DNA of 64,000 nt from Streptomyces sp. NBC_01233 (GTDB lineage: Bacteria; Actinomycetota; Actinomycetes; Streptomycetales; Streptomycetaceae). Of the stretch, positions 1-55,926 are shown one piece after another. The notes beneath the pieces were generated by a model. It was not told where the DNA came from and did not search any database. It saw nothing but the letters and a program-made list of their open reading frames with translations. The stretch lies in NCBI RefSeq assembly GCF_035989305.1, contig NZ_CP108514.1:1-64000 (forward strand), in the 5' to 3' direction. Numbering within the stretch: the stretch's first letter is position 1; each line of letters begins with the position of its first letter. Position numbers and translations under genes: made by a program.

Positions 1-306
1 CATCGCTGCGCGATGTGCAAGCGGGGGCGGTCGCTGCGCTCCCGCTGGCCCTTCGCGATGCGAAGGGCCGTTCCCTGCGCTGCGCTTCGGGAACGAGTGG
101 GGCCGGCCGCTGCGCGCCCGGTAGGCCGCGCGATGCGCGGCCGGGTCGATCAGGGTCTGACAGTGCAACTAGTGGCGGCTCTTGTTGTGGAGTTGAAGAG
201 GGAGTGAGGGAGGACTGCGTCCTCCTGGGCGGGTCCGCTGCGCTCCCCCGCCCAACGGTTCTTCCGGCTGCGCCTCCAGAACCGTTGGGGCCCACTGCGT
301 GGGCCT
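1..306. repeat. Streptomyces-type telomere palindromes
   Basis: The first 306 bases are packed hairpins. Clear ones are 1-15 (CATCGC, loop TGC, GCGATG), 47-69 (10-bp stem, loop GAT), 69-95 (7-bp outer stem), 103-121 (8-bp stem with one mismatch, loop TGC), 124-142 (8-bp stem, loop GAT), 209-225 (7-bp stem, loop TGC), 227-253 (7-bp stem), 254-286 (9-bp stem with an inner TGC loop) and 289-305 (7-bp stem, loop TGC). Tandem palindromes with three-base loops (GCA on the other strand) are the hallmark of Streptomyces linear replicon ends, where they fold in the 3' overhang during terminal patching. The first hairpin matches the second palindrome of the archetypal telomere. The usual outermost palindrome, CCCGCGGAGCGGG, is missing, so roughly 15-20 terminal bases are absent from the window. 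Bases 307-457 hold no gene I can support. Confidence 0.85.
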
Positions 307-457
307 GGCTGGCTACGAGGGGTGGGGGTCGCTCGTTCGTGTTGGGTACTAGTGTAGCGGGTGCATCGGGTTGATGCACCATGTACCGTTGGCGGAAACA
401 CGAGACACCCCCCAACCGCCTGGAACCCTCCCTCATTTTCGAGAGGAACGGCCGCAG

Positions 458-1150
458 ATGACCACGCACCACGAATCTACCGGACTAGATCCAGCGCTGA
501 TCAGCGATTCTGTGCGCCGGGTGAGTCAGTATCAGACGGCGGGCACCAACGCCCGGTTGAAGCTGTTCGCGCTCTTGGCCGCTCAGGGCGTACCCGCAGC
601 TGAGGCGGACGACCTGGAGGCCGGAGCCGTCGCCGGGGCGCAGAGCGAGGTCGTGGAGCTGGACGGGATGGCGCCGGCCTCTCAGGGCGGACTGTTCGCG
701 GACGGCTGGGACGAGGGCGTGGCAACGGTGAGCGAGGCCCTGGTGGGCATCGCGGACCGGGACTGGGCGCGGCGGTCTGGCCGGTCAGCCGGAGCTGCTG
801 AGCTGGCCGTACATCTCGCGGACGCACGTCGGCGGGAACGGGCCAACGTGGTGCGGCTGGAAGCGTTCGTGCGAGAGAGGGTGCTGCCGCGCACACAGCC
901 GAACACCACGGCGCGGCGCCGGGCGCTGGGAGCGCTGGGTGACGTCGGCGGTCTGTGCACGGCCCAGACGGTGGAGATGTCCAGCGGTGACGTCATCTTC
1001 TGCACCCTCGAGGCCGGGCACTACGACCCGCAGGACCTGCCGAGGTTCAAGTGCGGGAAGTCGGACGGGACGCCCGGCGGCTGGCATCTCGCGGGCTCGT
1101 CGATCTGGAGTGACGCCGGTGCGGCCAATACCTCGCACGCGGCCGTCTAA
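458..1150 (+). CDS. Subtelomeric hypothetical protein with C-terminal Cys/His cluster
   Basis: This 230-residue protein is not one I recognise. The ATG at 458 is preceded by GAGAGGAA at 441-448; the frame stays open further upstream but towards the telomere repeats. The first two thirds are acidic and helical (Ala/Glu/Arg-rich). The last 60 residues contain GGLCTAQ, FCTLEAGHYD and RFKCGK, a C-x(n)-C-x5-H-x(n)-C arrangement that could bind zinc, then GGWH. It ends 36 bp before the helicase gene and probably shares its transcript. Its position between telomere and helicase suggests a subtelomeric role, but that is inference only. Confidence 0.7.
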   Translation: MTTHHESTGLDPALISDSVRRVSQYQTAGTNARLKLFALLAAQGVPAAEADDLEAGAVAGAQSEVVELDGMAPASQGGLFADGWDEGVATVSEALVGIADRDWARRSGRSAGAAELAVHLADARRRERANVVRLEAFVRERVLPRTQPNTTARRRALGALGDVGGLCTAQTVEMSSGDVIFCTLEAGHYDPQDLPRFKCGKSDGTPGGWHLAGSSIWSDAGAANTSHAAV

Positions 1151-1186
1151 AAGACCACTGGAATTAGGCATCGGGGAGGCAAGGAA

Positions 1187-3856
1187 ATGTCAGCGATTCA
1201 GCTCAAGGAACACCAGGTCGACCAGAAGTCGGCGTTCCGGAAGTGGGTGGGATTCCCTGCAAGGTCATCTGTGCCCCCGCGGGGGGCCCGGGGAACGATC
1301 GTGTCCGCGACCGGGTCCGGCAAGACGATCACGGCAGCCGCGAGCGCGCTGGAGTGCTTCCGGGGCGGCCGGATCCTGGTCACCGTCCCCACCTTGGACC
1401 TGCTCGCTCAGACCGCCCAGGCGTGGCGGCTGGTGGGCCACCGGGCCCCGATGATCGCCGTCTGCTCCCTGGAGAACGACCCGGTCCTCAACGAACTGGG
1501 GGTGCGCACCACCACGAACCCGATCCAGCTCGCCCTGTGGGCCGCGTCCGGGCCCGTCGTCGTGTTCGCCACGTACGCCTCCCTGGTGGACCGCGAGGAC
1601 ATCGACGTACCGGAGGGCCAGCGGAAGGTTCGCGGGCCGCTGGAGGCCGCCCTGGCAGGCGGGGAGCGGCTGTACGGGCAGCGGATGGCGGGCTTCGACC
1701 TCGCCATCGTCGATGAGGCGCATGGCACGGCCGGTGATCTCGGGCGGCCGTGGGCCGCGATCCACGACAACGCGCGGATCCCGGCGGACTTCCGGCTCTA
1801 CCTGACCGCGACACCACGCATCTTGGCCGCGGCCCGGCCGCAGAAGGGCGCCGGCGGCCAGGAGGCGGAGATCGCGAGCATGGCCGACGACCCGGACGGC
1901 ACCTACGGCGCGTGGCTGGCCGAGCTCGGGCTGTCCGAGGCGATCGAGCGGGGCATCCTCGCGGGGTTCGAGATCGACGTCCTGGAGATCCGCGACCCCT
2001 CCCCCGTCCTCGAGGAGTCGGAGGAAGCGCGGCGGGGCCGGCGCCTGGCGCTGTTGCAGACCGCGCTCCTGGAGCACGCCGCGGCGTACAACCTGCGTAC
2101 GGTCATGACGTTCCACCAGAAGGTGGAGGAGGCGGCCGCGTTCGCCGAGAAGTTGCCCCAGACGGCGGCCGAGCTGTACGCCACCGACGCCTGCGACGCC
2201 GATCTGGCGGCTGCGGAGAAGCTGCCGAAGTCGTCGATCGAGGCGGAGTTCTACGAGCTGGAGAGCGGCCGCCACGTCCCGCCGGACCGGGTGTGGTCGG
2301 CGTGGCTGTGCGGGGACCACCTCGTGACCGAGCGGCGCGAGGTCCTGCGGCAGTTCGCCAACGGCATCGACGCGAACAACCGGCGCGTGCACCGGGCGTT
2401 CCTCGCCTCCGTGCGCGTCCTCGGCGAGGGCGTCGACATCACCGGCGAGCGCGGGGTGGAGGCGATCTGCTTCGCCGACACCCGCGGCTCCCAGGTCGAG
2501 ATCGTGCAGAACATCGGCCGCGCGCTCCGGCTCAACCGCGACGGCAGCACCAAGGTCGCCCGCATCATGGTTCCCGTGTTCCTGGAGCCGGGCGAGGACC
2601 CGACCGACATGGTCGCCTCCGCGAGCTTCAAGCCTCTTGTAGCGGTCCTCCAGGGCCTCCGCAGTCATGATGACCGTCTGGTCGAGCAGCTCGCCTCCCG
2701 CGCCCTCACCAGCGGCCAGCGCAAGGTCCACCTACGCCGCGACGAGGACGGGCGGATCGTCGGAGCCGGCAGCGAAAGCGAGGACCAGGAGCAGGACGGC
2801 ACCGACGCCGCCGCGGAGTCGGCCCTGCTCCACTTCTCCAGCCCGCGCGACGCCGCCACGATCGCCGCGTTCCTGCGCACCCGGGTCTACCGGCCGGACA
2901 GCCTGGTGTGGCTGGAGGGCTACCAGGCCCTCCTCCGGTGGCGCTCGGAGAACGGGATCACCGGCTTGTACGCCGTCCCGTACGACACCGAGACCGAGGT
3001 CGGCGTCACCAAGACGTTCCCGCTCGGCCGGTGGGTCCACCAGCAGCGGAAGGCCCTGCGCGCCGACGAGCTGGAGGAGCGGCGCAAGGTCCTGCTGGAC
3101 GCGCCGGAGGCCGGGATGGTGTGGGAGCCCGGCGAAGAGGCGTGGGAGGCCAAGCTCGCCGCCTTGCGGTCCTACCGCCGGGCCACAGGGCACCTTGCGC
3201 CCCGGCAGGACGCGACGTGGGGCGAGGACGACGAGATGGTGCCCGTTGGACAGCACATGGCCAACCTCCGCCGCAAGGGCGCCAAGAACGGCCTCGGGAA
3301 GGACGAGGACACCGCGACGACCCGGGCGGCGCAGCTCTCCGAGATCGACGAGGACTGGGACTGCCCGTGGCCGCTGGACTGGCAACGGCACCACCGCGTC
3401 CTGGCGGACCTGGTCGACGCCGACGGCGTCCTGCCCCACATCGCGCCGGGCGTCGTCTTCGACGGCGACGACGTCGGCAAGTGGCTCCGGCAGCAGAAGC
3501 AACCTGTCACCTGGGCGCAGCTCCTGCCCGAACAGCAGGCCCGGTTGACCGCGCTGGGCATCACGGCTCCTGAGGTCCCGTCTCCCGCGCCCGCGGCGGC
3601 GCGTACGGCGAAGGGTCCGAGCAAAGCACAGCAGGCGTTCCAGCGGGGCCTGGCGGCCCTCGCGCAGTGGGTGGAGCGGGAAGGCACGGACCGGCCGGTG
3701 CCCCGCGCGCACGGCGAGGAGATCGCGGTCAAGGGCGAGGCGGAACCAGTGATCGTGAAGCTCGGCGTGTGGGTCTCCAACACCAAGACCCGGCGCGACA
3801 AGCTCACCCAGGAACAGCTGGACGCCCTGCGGGAGCTGGGCGTGGAGTGGGCGTGA
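1187..3856 (+). CDS. TtrA-like telomere-proximal DEAH helicase with helicase-associated repeats
   Basis: An 889-residue superfamily 2 helicase. Walker A ATGSGKT lies at residues 41-47, DEAH at 176-179, LTATP at 206-210 and the arginine-finger motif QNIGRALR near 441-448. After residue 560 come Trp-rich helicase-associated repeats (WEAKLAALRSY near 650, WPLDWQRHHRVLADLV near 730, and a last one near 810-889 ending GVWVSNTKTRRDKL). Streptomyces chromosomes and linear plasmids carry helicases of this type (TtrA and relatives) within a few kb of the telomere, where TtrA affects conjugal transfer of the end. The location 0.9 kb from the telomere fits. A relic of a second copy of the C-terminal repeat is at 41.4-41.7 kb. 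All core motifs are intact, so it should be functional. Confidence 0.88.
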   Translation: MSAIQLKEHQVDQKSAFRKWVGFPARSSVPPRGARGTIVSATGSGKTITAAASALECFRGGRILVTVPTLDLLAQTAQAWRLVGHRAPMIAVCSLENDPVLNELGVRTTTNPIQLALWAASGPVVVFATYASLVDREDIDVPEGQRKVRGPLEAALAGGERLYGQRMAGFDLAIVDEAHGTAGDLGRPWAAIHDNARIPADFRLYLTATPRILAAARPQKGAGGQEAEIASMADDPDGTYGAWLAELGLSEAIERGILAGFEIDVLEIRDPSPVLEESEEARRGRRLALLQTALLEHAAAYNLRTVMTFHQKVEEAAAFAEKLPQTAAELYATDACDADLAAAEKLPKSSIEAEFYELESGRHVPPDRVWSAWLCGDHLVTERREVLRQFANGIDANNRRVHRAFLASVRVLGEGVDITGERGVEAICFADTRGSQVEIVQNIGRALRLNRDGSTKVARIMVPVFLEPGEDPTDMVASASFKPLVAVLQGLRSHDDRLVEQLASRALTSGQRKVHLRRDEDGRIVGAGSESEDQEQDGTDAAAESALLHFSSPRDAATIAAFLRTRVYRPDSLVWLEGYQALLRWRSENGITGLYAVPYDTETEVGVTKTFPLGRWVHQQRKALRADELEERRKVLLDAPEAGMVWEPGEEAWEAKLAALRSYRRATGHLAPRQDATWGEDDEMVPVGQHMANLRRKGAKNGLGKDEDTATTRAAQLSEIDEDWDCPWPLDWQRHHRVLADLVDADGVLPHIAPGVVFDGDDVGKWLRQQKQPVTWAQLLPEQQARLTALGITAPEVPSPAPAAARTAKGPSKAQQAFQRGLAALAQWVEREGTDRPVPRAHGEEIAVKGEAEPVIVKLGVWVSNTKTRRDKLTQEQLDALRELGVEWA

Positions 3857-3882
3857 CCGCTCCCTGAGCCGGACCGGTATCC

Positions 3883-3910
3883 AAGGCCCCGGGCATCATG
3901 CCCGGGCCTT
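3883..3910. terminator. Bidirectional terminator hairpin
   Basis: AAGGCCCCGGGCAT (3883-3896) pairs with ATGCCCGGGCCTT (3898-3910) around a single C, with one bulged C. It sits exactly between the convergent helicase gene and the leftward small gene whose stop codon is at 3910-3912, so it can terminate both. Confidence 0.75.
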
Positions 3911-4263
3911 CACCCAAGGCCCGCAGAGACGAACACGGCCTGGACGATCGCCCCCGGCAACGTCTGCCACGCCACTTCCTTCACCTTCTCCAGGGCCTGA
4001 CGCACCTTCCCCGGTTCCGGGCTGCTCTCGGCCAGCTCTCCCTCGAGTACAGCGACGCTCTCCGTAACCCGAGCACGAGCGGTCTCAGTGATATCGGCGG
4101 TGCTCGCGGCGGCAAGCAGATCACGGGCGAACTTCGCCAGCTGGTTTGGGTCGTAGCCGAAGGTGTTGTTCTGGGTGTTGTTGTCACCGAACTGATTGCC
4201 GTTGCCGAAGACGTTGAACTGGTTTCGGGCACCAGCTTGCTGGTCGTTCACGAACTTCCTCAC
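3910..4263 (-). CDS. Small Asn/Gln/Phe/Gly-rich protein beside the telomere, cut by IS3
   Basis: Read leftward, the protein has an N-terminal NDQQAGARNQFNVFGNG stretch followed by GNQFGDNNTQNNTFG, then a regular amphipathic helical region (LAKFARDLLAAAS onward) to the end. GTG codons at 4263 and 4251 are possible starts; the second follows AGGAAG at close spacing. The frame continues into the IS3 end at 4287, so the true N terminus may have been lost. The Asn/Phe/Gly motif recalls short amyloid-prone or signalling motifs of actinobacterial effector proteins, but I cannot assign it to a family. The DUF-like helical tail, about 75 residues, has no catalytic motif. Confidence 0.5.
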   Translation of the reverse strand: MRKFVNDQQAGARNQFNVFGNGNQFGDNNTQNNTFGYDPNQLAKFARDLLAAASTADITETARARVTESVAVLEGELAESSPEPGKVRQALEKVKEVAWQTLPGAIVQAVFVSAGLG

Positions 4264-4353
4264 GTTGACAGGGACGGTGGAGCCACTGAAGCTTCCCCTT
4301 GATCGTGGACACCTGGAGACTGGGATCTGAGGTTCCAGAGGAAGTAGTGCCAG

Positions 4354-4661
4354 GTGGGAAGCAAGTACACGAAGCGGTACTCGGACGAGTACAAGCGGGA
4401 CGCGATCGAGCTCGTGCGGTCGTCGGGCCGGACGGTGACCGAGGTCGCCCGGGAACTCGGGATCAGCTCGGAGTCCCTGCGGGGCTGGGTGAAGAAGGCC
4501 CGGGCCGCCCAGGACAACGGATCGGGACCCGGCGCCGTGCGGGCCGCCGACGACCGGGACGAGGAACTGAAGCGGCTGCGGAAGCTGACCGTAGAGCAGG
4601 CGAAGACGATCGAGATCCTGAAAAAGCGACCTCCTTCTTCGCGAAGGAGAGCGACCGGTGA
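4354..4661 (+). pseudogene. IS3 orfA, helix-turn-helix protein, frameshifted
   Basis: Starting at GTG 4354 (upstream AGAGGAAG), the product reads YTKRYSDEYKRDAIELVRSS and ELGISSESLRGWVKKA, a typical IS3 OrfA helix-turn-helix, then a leucine-zipper-like LKRLRKLTVEQAKTIEILKK. At 4619-4626 the run CTGAAAAAGCG changes frame: the usual ending KATSFFAKESDR followed by TGA at 4659-4661 is present in the -1 frame. One G appears to be missing after AAAAAG, or the A-run acts as a slippage site that restores the frame. The stop overlaps the GTG of orfB. Confidence 0.8.
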
Positions 4662-5554
4662 GCACGATATGCCGGTTCATCCACGCGGAGAAGGCGAACT
4701 ACACGATCGTGCTGCTGTGCACGGTGATGAAGACCGCCCGGTCCACGTACTACGCGTGGGTGGCCGGAGCCGAGGCCCGCGAAGCCAGGCGACGGGCGGA
4801 TGAGACCCTGGCACACGAGATCACGGTGATCTACATCGCCTCCCGGCGGAACTACGGCGTCCCGCGCGTCACCGCCGAACTGCGCCGGCAGGGCCGGGTG
4901 GTCAACCGTAAGCGGGTGGCACGGGTCATGCGGGAGAACGGCATCGCCGGGAACAGCCGGCGCACCGGACGCCGCGGCCTGACCAAGGCCGACACCAAGG
5001 CCGCCCCGTCGCCGGACCTGATCGGCCGGGACTTCACCGCCATCCGTCCCGGAACGAAAATCGTCGGGGACATCACCTACATCCCCACCGCCGAGGGCTG
5101 GCTCTACCTCGCCTCGTGGCTGGACCTGGCCACGCGCGAGGTGATCGGGTACTCGATGGCCGACCACCACCGCGCCGACCTCGTCGTCGACGCGCTGGAC
5201 ATGGCAGCCGCGCTGGGCCGCCTGGAACCCGGCTGTGTGATCCACAGTGACCGCGGATCGGAATACACCTCCGGTCAACTCCGCACAAAAATCAGCAAGT
5301 TGGGGCACCGGCAAAGTATGGGCCGGACCGGGAGCTGCTTCGATAACGCCGCCGCGGAGAGCTTCTGGGCCGTCCTGAAAGAAGAGATCGGCACCCGCTT
5401 CTGGCCCGACCGGGCCACCGCCCGCGCCGACATCTTCGACTTCATCGAGACCTTCTACAACAGACGCCGCCTACGCAAGCACATCCACTGGGGCTACCTC
5501 ACACCCCACGAAACCCGCCTGCGATACCGGCAAGACCAGGCCCTCGCAGCGTAA
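4658..5554 (+). CDS. IS3 orfB transposase (DDE integrase)
   Basis: A 298-residue OrfB with an N-terminal HTH_21-like region (VMKTARSTYYAWVAGAEARE, NYGVPRVTAELRRQG) and an rve integrase core. The catalytic residues are visible: the D of GDITYIPTAEGWLYLA, the D of VIHSDRGSEYTS and the E of NAAAESFWAVLKEE, followed by the C-terminal FIETFYNRRRLRKHIHWGYLTP. The GTG at 4658 overlaps the orfA stop, as is normal for this family. The gene is full length. If orfA is truly frameshifted the element is probably not autonomous. Confidence 0.92.
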   Translation: MSTICRFIHAEKANYTIVLLCTVMKTARSTYYAWVAGAEAREARRRADETLAHEITVIYIASRRNYGVPRVTAELRRQGRVVNRKRVARVMRENGIAGNSRRTGRRGLTKADTKAAPSPDLIGRDFTAIRPGTKIVGDITYIPTAEGWLYLASWLDLATREVIGYSMADHHRADLVVDALDMAAALGRLEPGCVIHSDRGSEYTSGQLRTKISKLGHRQSMGRTGSCFDNAAAESFWAVLKEEIGTRFWPDRATARADIFDFIETFYNRRRLRKHIHWGYLTPHETRLRYRQDQALAA

Positions 5555-5604
5555 CAACACCGTGTCCAAGATCACGGGGAAACTTCAACGCCAACACCGT
5601 TGCT

Positions 5605-7014
5605 TTAGCGCCGTGAGCGGCTGTTGAGGCCGTGCTCGAAGAACGTGATAGTGGTCTGGATGCTGTAGTTCTGGCTGGTCACGGGCTGTTGTCCGGCGTT
5701 CGGGCCGTACTTGCTGGTGGGGTTCTTGCGGGTGCGGGCTTTGATGCGTTGCCTGTGTTGGGACGGCAGCGGGGCTTCGAGGACGGCCTGACCGATCACG
5801 CCGACTCGGTCGACAGGGCCGAGTGGGGGCAGGATTCCGGTCGCGCTGATGACGGTGTCACCGGCGGTGCGGATCAGGACGGTGAAGCTGATCCGGCTCA
5901 TGGTGAGGTCGGGGCGGGTCTCGATGCCGTCGGCGGCGGCGCGGAGGAGGGCCTGGTAGGTCGTGAGCAGGGCGTAGACCTCCTGGTCGAGGCCGGGCTG
6001 GGTGCGCGAGCGCAGGACGCGGCCCTCCAGGATGGTCGCCTTGATCGAGAAGTAGGTGGTTTCCACCTGCCACCTGCGGTGATAGAGCTCGGCCACTTCA
6101 TCGGCGGGGTAGCGGACGGGGTCGAGGAGGCTGGTGAGCAGGCGCCACTGCTCGTGGCGGACAGTGCCGTCGTCCAGGCGGACTGTGAGGTGGGCCTCGA
6201 TGACGCGGACGGTGATCAGGACGGGAATGACGCCGTAGCCGATCCGGGCCAGGTAGGAGCCGTCGGCCAGGTGCTCGGCGGGGGTGGGGATGCGTCGGGC
6301 GGAAGAGCGGATCAGGAATCGTGCCCCGCTGCCCTGGATGTCACGGAGGAATTCCACCGCATCGAAGCCGGCGTCGGCCAGCAGGAGCATCGTGTCGTCA
6401 AGAGCGCCCAACAGGCGGTTCGCGTAGGTGAGTTCACCGTCACTCTCGGGTCCGAAGGTGGCGGCGAGCAGGGCGCGGGTGCCACACTCGACCAGGACGA
6501 CGAGCCGCAGCAGCGGGTAGCCGAACTCCAGCGTGTCACCGGCCCGTTTCGGGTACTTCCAGGTGAGCGTCTTCTCGTCCGGGACATGGAGGAGAGTGCC
6601 GTCGACGGCCACGCACCGCAGGCCCCGCCAGAACGTGCCCGACTGCCCGCGGACAGCGAGGGGCCCGGCCAGGATCTCGAACAGCCGCCGTAGCGGGGCG
6701 GCCCCTATCCGCCGCCTCGCCCGCGACAGCGAGGAAGCCGCCGGGACGGCCAGGGCCAGACTCGTCAGCGAGGCGGTCAGTTTGCCCCACACCGCCCGGT
6801 AGGAGCAGTTCTCGAACAGTGCGAGCGCGAGGACGAAGTACACCACCACCCGCGAGGGCAGCAGCCGCAGTCGCCGCTCGACCGTGCCGGTCTCCTCAAG
6901 CACCGCGTCCACCAGTTCGAAGTCCACCGTCTGCGTCAGCTCACCCAGCTGCCCCGGCGCGAACACACCCCCAGCGACCTCGATCGTGCGCGTGATGACA
7001 GACTTCTCCCGCAA
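5605..7014 (-). CDS. IS4-family transposase
   Basis: 469 residues. The N-terminal domain has FAPGQLGELTQTVDFELVDAV and RLRLLPSRVVVYFVLALALF, the conserved IS4 N-terminal region. The DDE core shows D in VAVDGTLLHVPD, D in LLLADAGFDAVEFL and the YREK-type motif with E in LYHRRWQVETTYFSIK. The start is TTG at 7012-7014, inside the arm of the leader hairpin described separately. No frame damage is visible. Confidence 0.9.
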   Translation of the reverse strand: MREKSVITRTIEVAGGVFAPGQLGELTQTVDFELVDAVLEETGTVERRLRLLPSRVVVYFVLALALFENCSYRAVWGKLTASLTSLALAVPAASSLSRARRRIGAAPLRRLFEILAGPLAVRGQSGTFWRGLRCVAVDGTLLHVPDEKTLTWKYPKRAGDTLEFGYPLLRLVVLVECGTRALLAATFGPESDGELTYANRLLGALDDTMLLLADAGFDAVEFLRDIQGSGARFLIRSSARRIPTPAEHLADGSYLARIGYGVIPVLITVRVIEAHLTVRLDDGTVRHEQWRLLTSLLDPVRYPADEVAELYHRRWQVETTYFSIKATILEGRVLRSRTQPGLDQEVYALLTTYQALLRAAADGIETRPDLTMSRISFTVLIRTAGDTVISATGILPPLGPVDRVGVIGQAVLEAPLPSQHRQRIKARTRKNPTSKYGPNAGQQPVTSQNYSIQTTITFFEHGLNSRSRR

Positions 7015-7077
7015 CGGGACTCCTGGACTCGACGATCACCTTGCTTCAGCACAAGTTGATCTACCAGGAGTCCCGTT
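7013..7077 (-). promoter_or_regulatory. Inverted-repeat leader over the IS4 transposase start
   Basis: AACGGGACTCCTGG (7013-7026) is perfectly complementary to CCAGGAGTCCCGTT (7064-7077). The downstream arm of the transcript includes the TTG start codon, so the hairpin would bury the start and damp translation. A near-identical arrangement is present in the second IS4 (10578-10590 with 10631-10643), which argues for a conserved control element of these transposons. Confidence 0.5.
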
Positions 7078-7133
7078 CCTGCTACTCATGCGGGGGTTGC
7101 CAACGACTCAAGATCCCTAACGCAACGGTGTTG

Positions 7134-7897
7134 ACTTCAACGCGGCCCTTCCCCGTCGGCCGGTAGGCGGCCAAGACGTCGATGTCGAAGTCGTAGTGCC
7201 CGGCGAACGCCACGGCCTCCGGATGCAACGGGACCGCCTCGCCCGGGGCGACGTGACGGCGCACGACAGTCTTGGTCCGGTCGTAGACGATCACCCCGGG
7301 CGCCCCGCCGAAGTGCGCGAACGCCCGCCGGTGGCACTCGAAGAACGATGCCAGATTCTGGCTGGTGGTGAAGCAGCAGAACGGATCTCGGGAGTAGGAC
7401 AAGGTCATGTGGAAGGAGTAGACCTTCGGGATGCCGACATGGGCCAGGATGTTGCCCTCGTCGCCCCAGTCGACCTGGGCCTGGGCGCCGGGCACCACCT
7501 CGAAGCGGCGGTGCAACTTCGCCAGCTCGCGCGGGGTATATCCCAACTCCTCGGCGATGCGGGGTCGGGCCTGCTGCACGTACATCTTGACGCGCTGGTA
7601 GTGGTGCGGGAAGGCATACTGCTCGACCAGACGCTCATGGATGACCGCGGCCTTCAGCAGCACCTCAGCCCGTAGCCACGCATCAATCACATGCGCCCAC
7701 GGCTTGATCACCTGGTTGCCGAGATCCGAGCGCGGCGCCGGAGCCGGCGGAACCGGAGGACCGTCGCTCTCCAGATACTTCTTGACCGTACGCCAGTTCA
7801 GACCGGTCTCCCGAGCGATCTCCGAGATGCTCGCGCCCGCCTCATGCAGAGCCCGGAAACGCCGCAGCTCCAGCCACCGCCCCGGTTCCAGCAACAT
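7134..7897 (-). pseudogene. IS21 istA, 5' fragment cut by IS3
   Basis: The fragment starts at ATG 7897 with a helix-turn-helix (GASISEIARETGLNWRTVKKYL), then the DDE core beginning VVPGAQAQVDWGDEG and VIVYDRTKTVVRRH. The sequence stops abruptly at PTGKGRVE, where full-length IstA proteins continue for a further 150-200 residues. The break coincides with the IS3 end and the IS4 target duplication. No istB lies nearby on this side. It is a different lineage from the istA at the right edge of the window as far as can be judged, since the two preserved parts hardly overlap. Confidence 0.85.
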
Positions 7898-8213
7898 CCG
7901 ACAGGCCCTCCTCGACGCTTCACAAGATCAGCGTCAGGCTCCTCTCATCGAGCCGGGCCCCACCCCGACACGCCGAGTCACCTCTGTAGATCAACCCGTA
8001 CGCACCTCTGCATCAGAGCCCGTACGCCGACAGCTGGCATGCGAAGGGCGGCCCCGCCCTCCCGCCACGTGGCTGAACCCGGCCAAGTCGGAGAGGCGGC
8101 CGGGGTCCTCTCGCTCTGGTCGCCCTGCAGGCCCCTGGCCTCGTCCTGTCGTCGGCGGCTGCGCGCCCCGACCTCGCGCTGCGATCCAGGGCGCGTCTTG
8201 AACTGCCGGAGAC
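7898..8213. other. Intergenic stretch without recognisable gene
   Basis: No open frame here shows a recognisable motif or a convincing start with ribosome binding site. It probably consists of IS21 terminal sequence followed by eroded DNA. Confidence 0.4.
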
Positions 8214-8369
8214 CGTCGGCAGCCCGCATTCACGGGCGGGCTGCTGCTGAGTCTCACGGTGGCCGAATCATGGTTCTGGATCGCTGCCGTCGGCTTCGCG
8301 CTCATGGCCGCCGTCTACACCGTGACGGGTGTTCGCCGGCTCCGCACACGCCGCAGCCCCGCTTCCTGA
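8214..8369 (+). pseudogene. C-terminal relic of a membrane protein
   Basis: Only the tail survives. It has one membrane-spanning segment, GLLLSLTVAESWFWIAAVGF followed by ALMAAVYTVTGV, a basic end RRLRTRRSPAS and a TGA at 8367-8369. There is no start codon with a ribosome binding site and the hydrophobic pattern begins abruptly. The parent family cannot be told from this piece. Confidence 0.4.
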
Positions 8370-8402
8370 TCCGTACGAGCAGGCCGTAAAGCCGCCGCCG
8401 CG

Positions 8403-8940
8403 GCGGCGCGTGCCGCGGCTGCCTTCTCGATCAGAGGTTGAGCTCGGCCGTCAGACGCTCGACGGCACCGGGCCACGCCGAGGCCCTTGCGCGTGAGCGC
8501 GCGGGTGATCCTGGGGGCCCCATACGTGCCGCCCGACCGGTGTGGACCTTCTCGATCAGGAGCTGCTCGTCGCGGAGTCGGCGGGCCGACTCCGGCCTGC
8601 TCTTGCGGGCGAAGTACGTCGACGGCGACAGTTCGAGAACCCGGCATACGGGGTCGACCCGGAGAACTTCTCCACAACAGGTGGTCGATCACCTGCTCGG
8701 CCTCGTCCGGGGACGGTCGATCTCCGGGGCGAAAACACCGAGGCGGCTTTGAGGATCCCGTTCGACCGCTTCAACTCGGCGTTCTGCTTGCGTTCGCCGT
8801 GTTCGGCCGAGAGTGAGCCGATCGTCACGCCCGCCGCGGCCTTGTGGTGGATGCCCAAGTCCTTCGCGACGTGCGCAATAGGGCGGCCGGTGGTGCGGAC
8901 CTCGCGGATCGTGCGCTCGCGAAGTTCGTCAGGGTATTTC
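8403..8940 (-). pseudogene. Decayed IS3-family orfA/orfB relic
   Basis: Next to the second IS4 the leftward reading gives KYPDELRERTIREVRTTGRP and IAHVAKDLGIH, an IS3 OrfA helix-turn-helix. It then runs, through frameshifts, into ELKRSNGILKAASVF, the normal OrfA tail. Further left, GTYGAPRITRALTRKGLGVA is a piece of the OrfB HTH_21 domain. The catalytic DDE core is gone. The 5' end of the same orfA (MPAPRKYP) lies on the far side of the IS4, at 10716-10738. Confidence 0.75.
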
Positions 8941-10715
8941 CAAGACCACGGAGTTATGGCTTGTCCGGCGCTGTCAACAGGGGCGGGGACAGGGGCTTGT
9001 GGAGGTTGGGGTGGTCCACTCGGGGTCGAGGGTGTAGAGGCCCCGGCCGGTGCGGCGGAGGATTCCTTCGCGGACCCAGCGTCCCAGTTCTGCGCGTAGT
9101 CCTTGGGGATCCTCCAGTCCGATACCGCGGGCGATTTCACATGCGCGCCAGGTGCGGTGGGGATCGGTTCGCAGGAGTTGCAGTGTGCGGTCGCGGCGTC
9201 CGTCGGGGCCTGGGCCAGCGGAGGGGTTCACGGTGACACTGATGCTGGTGATCCTGGATGCGCCCAGGACTTGTGCCTGGTGGGGCGGGGCGGCGTAGCG
9301 GGAGATCGGGCATTTGACGCGGCGTGGGTTGACGCGGGCCCGGCGGGGTGGGAGCAGATCGTGCAGCAGGGCCGGTGTGATTCGTCCCGGTCCGGTGTCG
9401 GGCAGTACGTCGGCTGCGGCGATGAGCTGGTCTTTTGCGGTCTCCAGGGCGACGGTGAAGGAGGCGCGGTCCGGGTCGGTGCCGGGGAGGGTCTCGACGG
9501 CCTCGGCCATCGCGCGGCGCAGTGCCTGGTAGACGGTCAGGTGAGCCCAGAGTTCTTGTTGGATCCCGGTCGCGTCCTGGGATCGCAGCACCAGGCCGTG
9601 CTGCAGGGTGTGCCGAAGCGAGTAGAACGCGGACTCGATCTCCCATCGCTCGTGGTAGAGCTCCACCAGCTCTGCGGCGGGGTAGCGACGGTGATCGGTC
9701 AGCGTGGTGGCCAGTCGGTAGTGGCCTTCCAGCCTCAGCCCTTTGGCGGTCGTCACCGCGATGTGCGCATCGATGATCCTCAGCCGGGTCCCGTTGATCC
9801 TGGTCAGGAATGACCCGTCCGGCAGTAGTGCCCAGCGTGCGGGTGTCCGGGTTCCCTTGAGGCGTACCAGCAGCTGGGCGCCGGTGGCCGCGGCCTTCGC
9901 GAGGAAGTCGTCGGAGTCGAAGCCCCGGTCGTTGAGCAGCAGCATCCTGTTGTCCAGCAGTGGTAGCAGCTGCTCGGCGTAGCCGGTCTCCTTCTCGGGC
10001 GTCGGTCCGAAGACCGCACCGAGCAGGGCCCGGGTTCCGGTCTCGCACAGCACCATGATCTTCAGCATCGGATATCCGTCCGTGCCGTAACGATGCTTGT
10101 GTTTGCCCAGCCAGGCGCAGACTCGCGGCCGGTCAGGGGCCTTGGTGGAGCTGCAGCCGTCGAAGGCGACTGTGCGCCAGCACCTGTATCGCACCCCTGG
10201 TGTGATCGGCTGTGCCACGGGACCGGCCAGTGTCTCGAAGAGCAGCCGCAGCGGCGCGGCGCCCAGCCGCCGGCGCACCTCTCGCAGCGCCTTCTCCGAC
10301 GGACGCGGTGGAAGGAGCCCGCGCAGGCCGCAGGTGAGTTTGTCCCACACCCGCATGTAGCCCAGCTGCGGGAAGAGAACCAGTGCCAGCACGAAGTAGA
10401 CACCCACCCTCGACGGCAGCAGCCTCAGCCTCCGCTGGGTTCCGCCAGTACGTTCCAGCACGTCATCGACCAGTTCAAAGGGCAGGTGCCGGGTCAGCTC
10501 GCCCAGATGCCCCGGAGCGAAGACCCCGTCGGCGACGGTGATGGACGACGTGAGCGTGACGGTGGAACACTGAACGGGCAACGGGGCTCCTTCAGGCGGG
10601 AAGACCTTGGTCGGCTTCCTCGCTCTACCAGGAGTCCCGTTGCCCTGACCGGCACTTCTCCCAAATACCTCGCCCCTGTTGACAGCGGCCGACAAGCCAT
10701 AACTCCGTGGTCTTG
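8941..10715 (-). mobile_element. IS4-family insertion sequence, copy 2 (distinct from copy 1)
   Basis: The element has long inverted ends: CAAGACCACGGAGTTATGGC TTGTC from 8941 mirrored at 10691-10715, continuing imperfectly through CGCTGTCAACAGGGGCG. It splits an IS3 orfA reading frame. The 10-bp flanks (8931-8940 and 10716-10725) both encode Lys-Tyr-Pro but differ at several bases, so they are not a simple target duplication. Confidence 0.85.
8974..10581 (-). CDS. IS4-family transposase with C-terminal winged-helix-like extension
   Basis: 535 residues from TTG 10581. The N-terminal IS4 region (FAPGHLGELTRHLPFELVDD, LRLLPSRVGVYFVLALVLF) and DDE core (VAFDGCSSTKAPD, LLLNDRGFDSDDFL, YHERWEIESAFYSLRHTL) are intact. 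About 60 extra residues follow the usual IS4 end: TLQLLRTDPHRTWRACEIAR, GLEDPQGLRAELGRWVREG and ILRRTGRGLYTL. These read like a winged helix-turn-helix and copy 1 lacks them. The start codon lies in a leader inverted repeat similar to that of copy 1. Confidence 0.88.
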   Translation of the reverse strand: MPVQCSTVTLTSSITVADGVFAPGHLGELTRHLPFELVDDVLERTGGTQRRLRLLPSRVGVYFVLALVLFPQLGYMRVWDKLTCGLRGLLPPRPSEKALREVRRRLGAAPLRLLFETLAGPVAQPITPGVRYRCWRTVAFDGCSSTKAPDRPRVCAWLGKHKHRYGTDGYPMLKIMVLCETGTRALLGAVFGPTPEKETGYAEQLLPLLDNRMLLLNDRGFDSDDFLAKAAATGAQLLVRLKGTRTPARWALLPDGSFLTRINGTRLRIIDAHIAVTTAKGLRLEGHYRLATTLTDHRRYPAAELVELYHERWEIESAFYSLRHTLQHGLVLRSQDATGIQQELWAHLTVYQALRRAMAEAVETLPGTDPDRASFTVALETAKDQLIAAADVLPDTGPGRITPALLHDLLPPRRARVNPRRVKCPISRYAAPPHQAQVLGASRITSISVTVNPSAGPGPDGRRDRTLQLLRTDPHRTWRACEIARGIGLEDPQGLRAELGRWVREGILRRTGRGLYTLDPEWTTPTSTSPCPRPC

Positions 10716-10738
10716 GGATACTTCCTCGGCGCAGGCAT
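10716..10738 (-). pseudogene. 5' end of the IS3 orfA split by IS4 copy 2
   Basis: ATG 10738 begins MPAPRKYP, the standard start of one IS3 OrfA subfamily, with AGAGGAG upstream. The frame is broken at 10715 by the IS4 and resumes as KYPDELRE at 8940. Bases 10739-10840 hold the rest of the IS3 end and nothing else I can name. Confidence 0.65.
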
Positions 10739-13797: not shown

Positions 13798-14979
13798 TCA
13801 GAGGAAGGGACGGCGCGGCAGGCGGGGCAGCTCGACGACGGTGCGCAGCATGGGGCCGACCGGGGCGTGACGGCCGACGGACAGGTCCTCGAGCAGGTTC
13901 GTGCGCCCATCGAGGAAGCGCAGGAGCCGGGCTGGCGGGACACGGGCGAAGAGTCGGCAGAACAGGTCCGGGCCGTCGACCCGGCCGCTGTCCAGGGCCC
14001 GCAGCAGGACCGCGTCCATGGTGCGGGCCCGCACGGAGTGGGCGGCCGGGGGCACCGGATCGCGGCCTTGTCGCAGCGCGGCGGCGACCGCCCGGGTCTG
14101 GCGCTGAAGTCCGGCGAAGGTGTATCCGGTGGACGGGCGGGTCGCGCCGCCGGCGGCACCGATCCGGAACACCGATGCACCGATGCGTTGCGGGATGGGG
14201 GCGTCTGTCATGGGGATCAGGCCGGTCTCGGTGGCGAGGATCTCCAGTTCGCCGAGGGCCAGGACGTCTGCGGCATAGTGCCGTAGCGCCGCCTCGTAGC
14301 CGCTGTCCGTCAGTACGTGGGGGGAGAACTCGGTGTACTCGACGAGTGCTTCGTGCGGGCCGGTGGGCAGGACGTAGCCGAAGGAGAGACCGTCAGCGGG
14401 CTGTGGTGTGCGGAAGTCCATCAGTTCCGCGGTCCCGGGGTCGAAGGTGGGCCGGGTGGTCCGGACGAACCAGCCGCGGAAGTGCTGCAGCAAGGTGGTG
14501 CGGGCGGCCGGGAGGCTTCCCAGAGGACGTGAGTCGAACACCCAGCGGGCCCTGAGGGCGTCGCGGCTGCCGTCGGGCCGGGTCATCAGCACCCGGGTGC
14601 CGGACGGGGTCTCCTCCACGGCGTCCACGGTCGCTTCCAGGCGCCGGACGTTGGGGCTGTGCGCCAGGTCCTGCGCGACCAGCGACTCGAAGTCGTGGGA
14701 GCGGATCATCTTGTACCGCAGCGGTGCGATGTTCACGTCGATCGGGGCGCCGGCGGGTGGCCGTACCCGCAGGTGGCGCCATTGTGATCGCACCGCGGCG
14801 TCGAAGCGGCCGCGGCCGGACTCCCAGAAGCACCAGGTGCGCGGGGCTGGACGCAGCGGACCGGGCGGGGCGTCGACGAGGATGACGGACGGGGCCGGGG
14901 CACCGTGTTCGTTCAGCCGGTGGGCCAGGGACAAGCCTGCGGCGCCTGCTCCGATGAGCGCCACGTCCGCCTTCGGCAC
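13798..14979 (-). CDS. crtY: Lycopene beta-cyclase CrtY
   Basis: 393 residues from GTG 14979, chosen because GGAGGT lies seven bases upstream; an in-frame ATG at 14994 and GTG at 15012 are alternatives. The dinucleotide-binding motif is VALIGAGAAGLSLAHRL near the N terminus. Further cyclase signatures are PRTWCFWESGRGRFD, WVFDSRPLG, FLRFLDGRTNLLEDL-like C-terminal text and VFRIGAAGGATRPSTGYTFA, matching the CrtY/CrtL flavoprotein cyclases. It converts lycopene to beta-carotene, the substrate of CrtU. First gene of the leftward operon. Confidence 0.9.
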   Translation of the reverse strand: MPKADVALIGAGAAGLSLAHRLNEHGAPAPSVILVDAPPGPLRPAPRTWCFWESGRGRFDAAVRSQWRHLRVRPPAGAPIDVNIAPLRYKMIRSHDFESLVAQDLAHSPNVRRLEATVDAVEETPSGTRVLMTRPDGSRDALRARWVFDSRPLGSLPAARTTLLQHFRGWFVRTTRPTFDPGTAELMDFRTPQPADGLSFGYVLPTGPHEALVEYTEFSPHVLTDSGYEAALRHYAADVLALGELEILATETGLIPMTDAPIPQRIGASVFRIGAAGGATRPSTGYTFAGLQRQTRAVAAALRQGRDPVPPAAHSVRARTMDAVLLRALDSGRVDGPDLFCRLFARVPPARLLRFLDGRTNLLEDLSVGRHAPVGPMLRTVVELPRLPRRPFL

Positions 14980-15214
14980 AGCTGCTACCTCCATTCCCGG
15001 GTCGGCGTTCACGCGCTGGGGTTTCCCGCCGCGGCGTGGAATCGGATGTGGTCTCGTGCCGAGGTCACCTGGTCAGGTGCATCCGCACGATGGCATTCCC
15101 GCGCATTCGGGTATCCGCTCCGAACCGCATCCGTATCACGGGAAGGGACCAAAGAAGCATGCGTCGAGCGATCGACACCACGACCGGTCGAAGACCACGA
15201 TGAGAGGAACCGGG
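14980..15214. promoter_or_regulatory. Divergent promoter region between crtY and crtE
   Basis: The 235 bases separate two divergent operons, so both promoters must lie here. I see no convincing sigma-70-type hexamers. In S. coelicolor the equivalent promoter is read by the light-induced sigma factor LitS. I cannot confirm such a site by eye. Confidence 0.4.
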
Positions 15215-38321: not shown

Positions 38322-39748
38322 CATGTCCCCCTTCGTGGTGTAGCCGATCACTCGGTGGGCGCGTTGGTGGCGTTGGGTGGTGCGGGGGCGCTTTTAGGGA
38401 GCTCGGTGGGGTAGATCTCGTCCATGCTTCCCTCGGGCAGGTAGCGGCGGGGGAAGGCGATCCATTCGTCGTGCAGTTCGAAGAGCACGGCTGTGACCAG
38501 TCGCAGGAGGGCGTCGTCGTTGGGGAAGACCTGGACGACGTCGGTGCGGCGCTTGATCTCGCGGTTGATCCGTTCGAGCGGGTTGGTGGACTGGATCTTC
38601 TTCCAGTGCCGTTCCGGGAAGGCCGCGAAGGCGGTCAGGTCGTCCTTGGCGTCCAGGAGCATCTGTTTGACCTTGGGGAACTGCTTGCCGAGCATCTCGG
38701 CGACGGTGTCGAGCTGGGTGCGGACCGCGTCCTGGGTGGGCTGGGCGAAGACTGTGCGGATGGTTGCGGCGACCATCTCGGTCGCCTCCTTCGGAATCAC
38801 CGCGAAGACATTTCGCAGGAAATGAACACGGCATCTCTGCCACGCGGCGCCGAGCATGACCTTGCGGATCGCCTTGACCAGGCCGGAATGGCTGTCGGAC
38901 AGGACCAGGCGGACCCCGGTCAGGCCGCGTTCGCGCAGGGAGCGCAGGAACTCGGCCCAGAACGCCTCGGTCTCGCTGTCGCCGACCATGACGCCCAGGA
39001 CCTCGCGGCCGCCGTCCTCGGTGATCCCGGTGGCGACGACCACGGCGCGAGAGACGATCTGGTGGTTCACGCGTGCCTTGCAGTAGGTGGCGTCCAGGTA
39101 CATGTAGGGGAAGCGGGTGTGGTCCAGCGGCCGGGTGCGGAAGGCGGTCAGCGGCTCGTCCAGGTCCGCGCAGATCCGGGAGACCTCGCTCTTGGAGATC
39201 CCGGTGTCCGCGCCCAGGGCCTTGACCAAGTCGTCCACCGACCGGGTGGACACGCCATGGACGTAGGCCTCCACGATGACCGCGTACAGGGCCTGGTCGA
39301 TCCGGCGCCGGCGCTCCAGCAGGCTGGGGAAGAAGCTTCCGGCGCGCAGTTTGGGGATGGCCAGCTCCAGGTCGCCGGCCTGGGTGGTGAGCGTCTTCTC
39401 GCGGTGCCCGTTGCGCAAGGCGGTACGGGCCTCGGTGTGCTCGTTCCAGCCGGCACCGATGTGGGCAGCGGCCTCGGCCTCGATCAGCTCCTGCAGCATC
39501 CGCTCGGCGATGCCGCGGACGAGTTCGAGTCCGTCTGCCGAGCGTAGTGACTCCAGCAGGCGTAATAGGTCAGACTGGGACAGGGCCACCTCGCACCTCC
39601 GTTGTTGAACTGGCCGTTCAATACGGAGAGTTGCATGGTGGCCCACCTCATGCGCAGAGAGCGCGAGCCCTCCGCGGGTGTGCGCCCGGCGAGCAAGCCC
39701 GCGCACACCTCACCCTTGATCGGCTACACCACGTGGCGGGACGCCATC
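38322..39748 (-). mobile_element. IS256-family insertion sequence
   Basis: CGTGGTGTAGCCGATCA at 38334-38350 is repeated inverted at 39717-39733, with imperfect pairing nine bases further out on each side. CCCGGGCCGGT occurs at 38311-38321 and again at 39749-39759. This could be the target duplication, though 11 bp is longer than the usual 8-9 and its distance from the matched ends is unequal. Confidence 0.75.
38348..39589 (-). CDS. IS256-family (mutator) transposase
   Basis: 413 residues from GTG 39589, six bases after GGAGGT. RNGHREKTLTTQAGDLELAI PKLRAG is the N-terminal signature. Catalytic region: YLDATYCKARVNHQIVSRAV, VLSDSHSGLVKAIRKVML, and the mutator motif with WQRCRVHFLRNVFAVIPK. E of STNPLERINREIKRRTDVVQ is the third acidic residue. 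Full length. Confidence 0.93.
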   Translation of the reverse strand: MALSQSDLLRLLESLRSADGLELVRGIAERMLQELIEAEAAAHIGAGWNEHTEARTALRNGHREKTLTTQAGDLELAIPKLRAGSFFPSLLERRRRIDQALYAVIVEAYVHGVSTRSVDDLVKALGADTGISKSEVSRICADLDEPLTAFRTRPLDHTRFPYMYLDATYCKARVNHQIVSRAVVVATGITEDGGREVLGVMVGDSETEAFWAEFLRSLRERGLTGVRLVLSDSHSGLVKAIRKVMLGAAWQRCRVHFLRNVFAVIPKEATEMVAATIRTVFAQPTQDAVRTQLDTVAEMLGKQFPKVKQMLLDAKDDLTAFAAFPERHWKKIQSTNPLERINREIKRRTDVVQVFPNDDALLRLVTAVLFELHDEWIAFPRRYLPEGSMDEIYPTELPKSAPAPPNATNAPTE

Positions 39749-39759
39749 CCCGGGCCGGT

Positions 39760-39905
39760 AAAGGGCGGGGAGGTCGTAGACCTTGGTGCCGAGGATCTGA
39801 CGGTAGGGGTCGAAGGGGTTGTGCTGCCCGGGAGAGTTGTCGGGCAGGCTGCTGCGGAGTCTGCGGTAGAGGGTGGTCTTGGCATCGGCTTCAGTGAGGA
39901 TCTGT
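39760..39905 (-). pseudogene. Unidentified coding relic beside IS256
   Basis: The leftward frame reads AGQILTEADAKTTLYRRLRS, SLPDNSPGQHNPFDPYRQIL and GTKVYDLPALY, coherent protein-like text ending in the IS256 flank. I cannot name the parent family. Another frame to its right (LLAPTTGLRWRDLQTW) recalls an integrase segment. 39910-40099 shows no intact gene. Confidence 0.35.
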
Positions 39906-40099
39906 CCTGCTACCAGGTCTGGAGGTCCCGCCAGCGCAGGCCCGTGGTCGGGGCAAGGAGACCCGCAAGACGCTGGAGGCCCGGCAGCAGGCCGAGGCCG
40001 GCCACGCGGCCCGGGTACACCGGGGCGTCTGACACGCGTACGCCGCCCCGACCCCCGGACCGGATCAGGTCCGGGGGTGTGGTGTCAGCCCTTTCGGTG

Positions 40100-41035
40100 T
40101 CAGCCCCTGCGACGGCGGTTCCGGGCGACGATCGCGCGGGTGACCACGGGCGGGAGCAGATCCTTGGCCAGCTTGCGCCAGCGGACACCGGGCCTGCGCG
40201 CGGCGGCGGGAGCGGGGACCGGCGCCGGCTCCGCCCGCGGCGTGGGGTGTAGCGGCTGCGGGGGCACCGGCGCGACCACGCCCTGGTCCCCGATGCGTAC
40301 CAGGGGGCGGCCGTCGATCACGTCCACGCCGTGCCAGAGGTCGGTGCGCTCCTCCAACCACGCGAGCAGTGCCGCCTGGTGGGGCGCCGGGTCGCCCCAG
40401 GTTGCGTAGAGCTTCGAGGCCGAGACGCAGATCGGGTGCAGTTCGCCCGTGACCACGGCGGTCCAGACGGCGGCCGCGACGCCGGGGCAGTGCTCGGAGC
40501 GGTAGTCGTCGAAGACCACCACGGCATCCGGGGTCGCGACGAGACGCGAGGACGCGATGTCCGTGACGACGTGCTCGTAGAGGTGCGAGGCGTCGACGTG
40601 CACGAATCGGCAGCTCGTCGGCTTGACCCGGTCGGCGACGACCGAGGTGGGGGCTTGGATCAGCGTCGGCAGCGCCTCGTGGAAGGCCAGGTAGTTCGTC
40701 TCGAAGCCGCGCCGCGTGAGCGTGGGATAGGAGCTGCGGTTCTCCGCGACGTTGGAGTCGTCCGTCGCGGGCGAGTCGAAGAGGTCGCAGACGGTGAACT
40801 CCTCACCGGGCCGGAGGTACCGTCCGAGGAAGATCGCGCTCTTCCCCATGAAGGCACCGAGCTCCAGCAAGTCGCCCGGCTGCCCCTCACCGCTGTTCTG
40901 ACGTGTCAGGAACCAGTCGAAGAGCACCTGGTCGTACGCCGAGAACCACCCTTTGACCTCGCCGTACGTGGTGGGGACGAGCGGGGCCGGCTCACCGTCG
41001 GGGGTCGTGACGGAAGCTTGTGAAACGTGCGACAC
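40100..41035 (-). CDS. Class I SAM methyltransferase (Methyltransf_24 / hydroxylase-like)
   Basis: 311 residues from GTG 41035; GGAGGA lies ten bases upstream. LLELGAFMGKSAIFLGRYLR is motif I, EFTVCDLFDSPATDDSNVAE follows, and CRFVHVDASHLYEHVVTDIA with VVVFDDYRSEHCPGVAAAVW give the D-x-SH motif of macrocin and cephalosporin-hydroxylase-like methyltransferases. Residues after 240 are Pro/Ala-rich with a basic end (RWRKLAKDLLPPVV, ARNRRRRG). Substrate probably a small molecule or sugar. No partner enzymes are adjacent. Confidence 0.82.
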   Translation of the reverse strand: MSHVSQASVTTPDGEPAPLVPTTYGEVKGWFSAYDQVLFDWFLTRQNSGEGQPGDLLELGAFMGKSAIFLGRYLRPGEEFTVCDLFDSPATDDSNVAENRSSYPTLTRRGFETNYLAFHEALPTLIQAPTSVVADRVKPTSCRFVHVDASHLYEHVVTDIASSRLVATPDAVVVFDDYRSEHCPGVAAAVWTAVVTGELHPICVSASKLYATWGDPAPHQAALLAWLEERTDLWHGVDVIDGRPLVRIGDQGVVAPVPPQPLHPTPRAEPAPVPAPAAARRPGVRWRKLAKDLLPPVVTRAIVARNRRRRG

Positions 41036-55076: not shown

Positions 55077-55926
55077 GGGCGGTGTCAGGCCGGCGCCCAC
55101 GATGAACCCGAGCGTGACACTCGGGCTCGCGAACGCGATAATTCCGATAACTGCGCACAGAACCGTGCCGGTCACAACCAGGCCCGTGACCTTAGCGCGC
55201 GAGGATAGCTGGTTCAGCCAGCTCACAGTCGAGAAAGTCACGAGATATATGGTGGAGCCGAAAGCGGCCGACGCCAGAGCGGTTAGATAATTCACTCCGC
55301 AACCTTTCAAAATCGGAAGCCGACATGTCTCTCTCCGGTCGCCACGGTCGGCCGCACTCCCTTTTCGGGATCACTTGACCGCCGGTCCGTTCACCTGCAA
55401 TATCCGTCGCCGCCACTGCCGCTGCAATAGCCGCTTCCGGCCAGGACTGCCGCTGGCGAAAGGGGCGCGAGTCCTGGGTTGACCTTTATTTTGACGCACC
55501 GATCGGTCGCGACCACGACCCCCGCGAACCCCGCGAGGCTTCAGCGCCCGACGACCGCGGCCGGGTGCGGCGAGTTCTTGAGCTTCACGTGTTGTTCCCT
55601 GATCGGCGGAGTTTTCGTGTTCGGTGGAGCAGGATGAACAATAGCGATCTTCACGGGATGATCAATATCTACCACTCGTTTCCGGAGCGCACGGCGCCTA
55701 CGCTTCACCATCACAGGGCAGGATGGGCACGCCGCCTCCGCTTCAGGGCATGTACCCCCACTGCAAGCGCGGCAGCACAGATGCCTGCCGCCGACCAGGA
55801 AGCCGTGCGCTTGACCACGTCGGCCAGCGTAGGGGCAGGGTCGCGGCAGTCAGGGGCCGCGGGTTCCACCCGCAGTCGGGCCCAGACCTTTGACGGCGTC
55901 CCCGACTCTGTTGCTCAATTCCGGGG

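Follow-up and report, generated by a model that had tools for sequence, protein, structure and literature searches.

Hairpin block and adjacent genes at the left edge of the window

The window, a stretch of 64,000 nucleotides, comprises positions 1-64000 of contig C1 (10,187,596 bp) in the four-contig, 10,336,409-bp genome of Streptomyces sp. NBC_01233. Positions 1-305 are densely packed with palindromes. A search for strict hairpins with 3- or 4-nucleotide loops, in which mismatches were penalized, found six within positions 1-310, all with the loop TGC or GAT on the plus strand. These are palindrome II at 1-15 (TGC loop), which is without the two outermost bases that are present at the right ends of C1 and C2, two hairpins with a GAT loop at 47-69 (10-bp stem) and 124-142 (8-bp stem), and three further hairpins with a TGC loop at 103-121 (one mismatch, also placed by alignment to plasmid ends), 209-225, and 289-305 (7-bp stems in the latter two). 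Folding with RNA parameters, carried out without a shuffle control, added four imperfect stem-loops on the same strand at 21-45, 70-94, 228-253, and 255-286, giving ten hairpins that can be drawn. The original prediction for this stretch had counted nine tandem hairpins with TGC or GAT loops; the loops hold for all six strict hairpins, and the count is raised to ten. An additional palindrome at 360-380 (plus strand), found by alignment and folding, lies within a conserved telomere block that ends at about position 420. Because the loop reads TGC on the plus strand, it reads GCA on the strand of the 3' overhang.

The hairpin search was controlled with 500 dinucleotide shuffles and the 205 other 310-bp tiles of the window. 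Six or more hairpins were reached by none of the shuffles and by none of the tiles, and no control tile held more than one hairpin with a TGC or GAT loop. DNA folding of positions 1-310 gave -95.8 kcal/mol (z = -4.81), a stability equaled by none of 100 shuffles. An Rfam scan of window positions 1-5000 at gathering scores returned no family, and a mechanical list of open reading frames places a 119-residue frame at 15-374, overlapping the hairpin block.

Next to the block lie a 230-residue open reading frame at 458-1150 (plus strand), which has no Pfam or NCBIfam family match at an E value of 0.001, and a gene at 1187-3856 (plus strand) that was assigned by domain search to the DEAD/DEAH helicases with helicase-associated domains. 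We presume that this telomere-adjacent helicase resembles TtrA. Among the best 80 of 291 relatives in a species-genome collection, 67 start less than 2 kb from a contig edge; a telomere-block match was present in 60 of the 80 stretches and extended in 16 of these into the first 30 bases of the block. The helicase is therefore a usual neighbor of the telomere.

Telomere class and missing terminal bases

Window positions 1-420 were used as a blastn query against a database of 72,556 plasmid records. Matches were obtained in 117 records, 116 from Streptomyces and one labeled [Kitasatospora], and 38 of the 117 covered at least 80% of the query; among the rows of the best 40 of the 117 records, the top-ranked matches sit at record ends. 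The ends of pSV2, SAP1, and pFRL1 align with the query at 81.8-84.0% identity across 99-100% of its length. We count these three ends as archetypal, and the class assignment was made against them, all three having the conserved 13-nucleotide palindrome. The archetypal telomere is that of the chromosomes of S. coelicolor and S. avermitilis. The order of the palindromes, the first palindrome with its TGC loop, and its position are the same in the three plasmid ends as in the window. Some of their loops are GGT, ATC, or GGA where the window has GAT, and none of the three has the stretch around the 7-bp-stem hairpin at 209-225 in the same form, theirs being shorter or different. As set out in a section of PMC7205883, the archetypal telomere is marked by a 13-nucleotide terminal palindrome I and five further inner palindromes, the 3-nucleotide central motifs of which are mostly GCA. 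At least five inner palindromes with 3-nucleotide loops, mostly GCA on one strand, were found at the window edge.

In pSV2, SAP1, and pFRL1, CCCGCGGAGCGGGTACCA precedes the position equivalent to window base 1. From the alignment to the plasmid ends, C1 lacks 18 nucleotides on its left and 16 on its right, and C2 lacks 12 at each end. The figure of 18 falls within the 15-20 terminal bases that had been predicted to be uncaptured along with the outermost palindrome. An exact search of the whole genome found the 13-nucleotide palindrome I at no contig end, the contigs stopping 12-18 nucleotides short, and the C2 ends retain GTACC(A/C), whose first base is the last base of palindrome I. Inside the contigs, the 13-mer gave five matches against 11 for the reversed control, which lends no support to the presence of palindrome I there. 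A section of PMC7205883 notes that the final terminal nucleotides may be absent from assemblies of this kind; a bound protein or a terminal hairpin may be the cause.

Replicon ends and the terminal inverted repeat

The first 400 bases of the window occur four times in the genome, once at each end of C1, in inverted orientation, and once at each end of the 70,544-bp contig C2, so that replicon ends with an inverted repeat, as expected of archetypal telomeres, are present. Three of the four terminal copies are identical or nearly so, and that at the left end of C2 is 89% identical. The same sequence on all four ends indicates that the assembly has C1 as a linear chromosome and C2 as a linear plasmid. 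With the four-end placement, the alignment to the ends of linear plasmids, and a number of hairpins beyond chance, sequence comparison confirms the left edge of the window as a Streptomyces telomere of archetypal type. It is also the end of a replicon, as originally predicted, the other end of C1 holding the same sequence inverted. A telomere at the contig edge means that the assembly is almost complete there and that the adjacent genes are subtelomeric and, in this genome, duplicated.

The duplication extends far beyond the hairpins. Left-arm positions 1-175385 match the right arm (3-175381, counted from its end) in a single alignment of 175,388 columns with one mismatch and 12 gap positions. 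The window (1-64000) makes up about the outer third of this 175.4-kb terminal inverted repeat, and therefore all of it is duplicated at the opposite chromosome end; the prediction that the rest of the window can be read as a subtelomeric arm is supported. On its inner side, the repeat is bounded by a copy of the 1.8-kb IS4-family element IS_b, which is also present at window positions 8940-10716.

In the right arm, the inner-edge copy of IS_b (C1:10012214-10013992, L062) has inverted rather than direct flanks, and the sequence that precedes it recurs behind it in inverted orientation, which suggests that IS_b was also involved in forming the 175-kb repeat. Window positions 61834-64000 are 99.9% identical to part of contig C3 (45007-48057). 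In both arms this match extends beyond the window to a length of 3.05 kb, and the inverted repeat thus has DNA in common with a third replicon. The fourth contig, C4 (23,441 bp; L010, L023), begins and ends with the same 6.4 kb in direct orientation (99.98% identity) and looks like an over-assembled circular plasmid of 17.0 kb.

The telomere block in other genomes

The block was further searched for in 199 genomes of the genus, own genome included, with three candidates scored per genome; the genus was inferred to be Streptomyces from the named relatives. Matches were present in at least 96 of the 199, many of them short pieces, and numerous 30-60-nucleotide rows inside contigs were read as hairpin look-alikes and excluded from the telomere count. 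Among the matches listed, 14 outside the own genome, in 12 genomes, were near full length (starting at or before base 30 of the query and running beyond base 300), and nine of these 14 are known to be no more than 104 bases away from the end of a contig.

A near-full-length copy inside a contig could mean that the hairpins form an internal repeat or mark the edge of an assembly, with no replicon end at all. Such copies exist. One lies at NZ_CP108553.1:22548-22937 in the 120,770-bp plasmid of Streptomyces sp. NBC_01208, where the block occurs in three places of the record and which holds the sole internal near-full-length copy among the best 40 plasmid rows. Another is found some 24.8 kb inside a Streptomyces sp. 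AV19 scaffold (L110, from base 755). Both are perhaps fused replicon ends or assembly joins. The finding named beforehand as fatal to the telomere reading was an internal copy devoid of archetypal telomere similarity; the copies in NBC_01208 and AV19 are themselves telomere-like, and hence are of another kind. The block caps C1 and C2 at either end and also terminates the records of pSV2, SAP1, and pFRL1. Set against this and the nine near-terminal matches in other genomes, an internal repeat or assembly edge is extremely improbable.

The chromosome end shared with plasmid C2

Apart from one insertion, window positions 1-10725 are common to the chromosome and the right end of C2 at 99.9% identity (99.98% for 1-5591 and 99.92% for 7134-10725). 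The insertion is the IS4-family element IS_a (5592-7133), which with its 10-bp target duplication ACTTCAACGC spans 5582-7143 and is present in both chromosome arms. The corresponding site on C2 is empty and has a single copy of ACTTCAACGC. With the site filled on the chromosome and empty on C2, the chromosome would have gained IS_a after sharing of the segment began.

The identity between C2 and the chromosome ends nine bases past a second IS4-family element, IS_b (element 8940-10716, 8933-10723 with flanks), which thereby forms its inner limit. On C2, IS_b has matching GGTATTT at both flanks, whereas the chromosomal copy is chimeric, with GGTATTT on one side and GATACTT on the other. When the two C2 flanks were joined, 20 plasmid records matched, the match across the join covering as many as 170 of the 295 bases. 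In two fetched records, both C2 flanks match one uninterrupted element (left flank 85% over 102 bases, right flank 91-94% over 67), and other matched rows name such sites IS3-family transposase. For the chromosomal copy, the outer flank is as on C2, whereas the inner flank (GATACTT) matches a different IS3-like element at 95-100% over 84-92 bases, a type that also occurs beside IS_b elsewhere on the chromosome. When joined, the chromosomal flanks likewise give matches across the join (60 records, 74-88% among the rows listed), the two IS3 types being similar around this site, and the distinction between the types is based solely on comparison of the halves and on the flank duplications. Neither the four fetched references nor the chromosomal locus L065 contained one sequence matching both chromosomal halves at an E value of 0.001.

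The parental state of the IS_b flanks on C2 and their chimeric state on the chromosome point to a C2-like plasmid as the probable source of the chromosome end, acquired via recombination inside IS_b. The simplest reading of the junction is a crossover between a plasmid-borne and a chromosomal IS_b that replaced the chromosome end with the plasmid end. The junction would then show, base by base, how a chromosome can exchange its end for that of a plasmid. Transfer in the reverse direction, with the right end of C2 received from the chromosome, could account for the 88.9% identity between the two C2 telomeres, one of which may once have been replaced. On C2, however, the IS_a site is empty and the flanks of IS_b are parental, whereas on the chromosome the site is filled and the flanks are chimeric, which makes this a decidedly unlikely course of events. 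Synteny of C2 with other plasmids leaves the polarity undecided in the best 20 of the 212 records obtained with a megablast of the C2 right arm, as these have the helicase and the polyketide synthase parts in separate records and none across the junction. Of seven other IS_b loci read, two (L062 and L064) likewise differ between their two flanks. IS_b has thus undergone more than one recombination, and an exchange with a partner other than C2 could have produced the chimera on the chromosome.

The genome holds 15 complete or nearly complete copies of IS_b. The flanks that were read seem to lie at the starts of IS3-type transposase genes, and the target of IS_b may be a site within other IS elements.

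Tap and Tpg genes

The genome was searched with the NCBIfam models for Tap and Tpg. Of 14 control genomes, the Tpg model matched none, and the Tap model matched four weakly and none over the cut-off. The only Tap over the cut-off in the NBC_01233 genome is encoded on C2 (14684-16882, full length, 1110 bits). The best Tpg adjoins it (C2:14075-14623, full length, 268.5 bits) and contains the motif TTDED; a second Tpg on C2 (5513-6049) has a serine at the expected priming threonine. As described in part of PMC3572947, serine at this site occurs in four lone plasmid tpg copies, three of which are pseudogenes and one of which works.

On the chromosome, Tap is represented by a fragment at 709014-709547 (positions 507-685 of 695) and short, weak matches of N-terminal type. 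One chromosomal Tpg copy (385841-386269) is broken by a TGA codon, and a second Tpg-like frame (9934953-9935498) is open over 209 codons, scores 243 bits, and has TTDD at the presumed priming site. Machinery of the tap-tpg type, as expected of a cell with archetypal telomeres, is hence present and located on plasmid C2. No intact tap-tpg pair was found on the chromosome, where the second Tpg is out of frame across its helix-turn-helix and may or may not be active, and the full pair is carried by a linear plasmid capped with this telomere, which is the arrangement of the S. rochei type.

Because the only full-length tap and its tpg partner are located on C2, the linearity of the chromosome probably depends on the plasmid, and the archetypal chromosome ends are most likely served by the C2 genes. 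The alternative is that the telomere is real and the chromosome independent of C2, using the Tpg-like protein at C1:9934953 with an unrecognized Tap or another terminal-protein system, such systems including Tac/Tpc and GtpA/GtpB. The length of the open frame and its score speak for this, and undiscovered end-patching systems are held to be likely in part of PMC8743542. On the other hand, the three-frame translation finds the expected helix-turn-helix motif of this gene in another, wrong frame, with third-position GC lost, and the chromosome holds Tap fragments only. Moreover, five lone tpg genes tested in work partly described in PMC3572947 included three pseudogenes, and of the two that worked, the one from SLP2 needed tap. 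The out-of-frame chromosomal Tpg might still work, but independence from C2 is on balance unlikely.

Dependence on C2 is therefore the preferred reading, and the maintenance of the ends would follow the established Streptomyces pathway. After bidirectional replication, the 3' overhang would fold into the hairpins of the window, with loops GCA and ATC on that strand; Tap would bind the folded overhang and recruit Tpg, whose residue equivalent to Thr114 would prime fill-in synthesis and remain attached to the 5' end. The chromosome ends would have been acquired from a C2-like linear plasmid through homologous recombination within IS_b, the plasmid-derived end would be on both arms as part of the 175-kb inverted repeat, and the tap of C2, the only full-length one, would with its tpg partner maintain the linear chromosome. 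Taken together, an archetypal telomere short of 18 bases, ends derived from a C2-like plasmid via IS_b, and a chromosome that probably needs C2 for its linearity form an account that we consider likely. If the dependency is true, loss of the plasmid would mean loss of the chromosome ends, and a small plasmid would be effectively essential for linearity.

These results support the telomere originally predicted and extend the prediction, in that the window lies within a 175-kb repeat, its outer 10.7 kb are common to a plasmid, and intact machinery genes are located on that plasmid. The telomere itself is of a known kind. Added to it are the connection to a plasmid through a junction that can be read, a likely dependency on C2, and a hint that this state is frequent.

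Comparison with known plasmid-linked chromosomes

Dependency of a linear chromosome on a plasmid is a kind of relation already published for S. rochei and S. clavuligerus. In S. rochei 7434AN4, according to part of PMC6662830, the chromosomal tpg is truncated, tap-tpg is located on plasmids, and the chromosome ends share the right-end sequence of a plasmid. This strain (with pSLA2-L and -M) has no chromosomal tap and, like NBC_01233, has full tap-tpg on linear plasmids, according to the same source. The shared end is 3.1 kb at 98.5% identity in S. rochei, as far as described there, and 9.2 kb at 99.9% plus one IS in NBC_01233. Plasmid curing was tested in S. rochei, according to the same part of the paper, whereas in NBC_01233 the dependency is read from sequence.

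In S. clavuligerus, the plasmid-borne tap-tpg is likewise presumed to serve the chromosome, and loss of its carrier pSCL4 was followed by terminal deletions in five of five clones, with circularization shown in two (part of PMC8743545). pSCL4 is a 1.8-Mb megaplasmid (part of PMC5702194), whereas C2 has 70.5 kb. The chromosome of S. lividans and the right end of SLP2 have 15.4 kb of terminal sequence in common, but unlike NBC_01233, S. lividans has its own chromosomal tap-tpg (both from part of PMC3572947). Sharing of telomeres through plasmid-driven transfer is a conclusion given in part of PMC8743542.

Distribution of Tap among relatives

In 138 of the 199 genomes, at least one Tap over the cut-off was found. 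The census of its location was confined to the 27 of these 138 that are assemblies of two to six contigs, single-contig assemblies being blind to plasmid state and left out. In 15 of the 27, own genome included, Tap over the cut-off is located solely on a contig of 70 to 475 kb (G000, G004, G010, G025, G027, G038, G054, G057, G067, G074, G083, G107, G117, G141, and G166), which in some cases could be an unjoined chromosome end. Every Tap candidate from the first screening was scored in these 15 genomes, the tap of G010 being in two pieces. The other 12 have at least one Tap over the cut-off on a larger contig, a placement judged from match coordinates for G019, G082, G094, G096, G101, G108, and G158.

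Telomere-like matches in the 14 small-contig-only relatives varied, among the matches listed. In G067, G166, and G038, C1 has such a match at either end. G054 has one at the left end and another 0.65 kb short of the right end, G117 (29 bases only) and G025 have one at a single end, and the match in G074 lies 8 kb inside. For G004, G010, G027, G057, G083, G107, and G141, the matches listed include none at either end of the large contig. In at least one of the 14, G054, C1 also has a high-scoring Tpg (278 bits), so loss of tpg is no general companion of a Tap confined to a small contig.

The census suggests that plasmid-held linearity may be frequent. Capture of a plasmid telomere followed by decay of the chromosomal tap-tpg could be common in Streptomyces, a linear plasmid then holding the chromosome hostage, with IS-mediated arm exchange, as recorded by the chimeric IS_b junction of NBC_01233, as the route. 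We put this generalization forward tentatively, as a possibility falling somewhat short of even chances. Among the papers listed in literature searches, we found no comparable Tap census, and one may still exist.

Further features of the window and of C2

Two identical direct copies of a 1363-bp sequence are present at window positions 53715-55077 and 58217-59579, each 100% identical to the other's place in the right arm. The sequence is found again at C2 24163-25525 (99.9%) and is probably an IS. At 13798-15012, the window encodes a lycopene-cyclase-like protein that scores under the curated cut-off and lies beside a methyltransferase-like gene; a carotenoid cluster near the telomere is possible. 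On C2, a type I polyketide synthase region at about 50.6-60.7 kb (L008) is approximately 88% similar to parts of Streptomyces megaplasmids, and a tandem repeat with a period of 297 bp occupies 39271-40479 (L019/L020).
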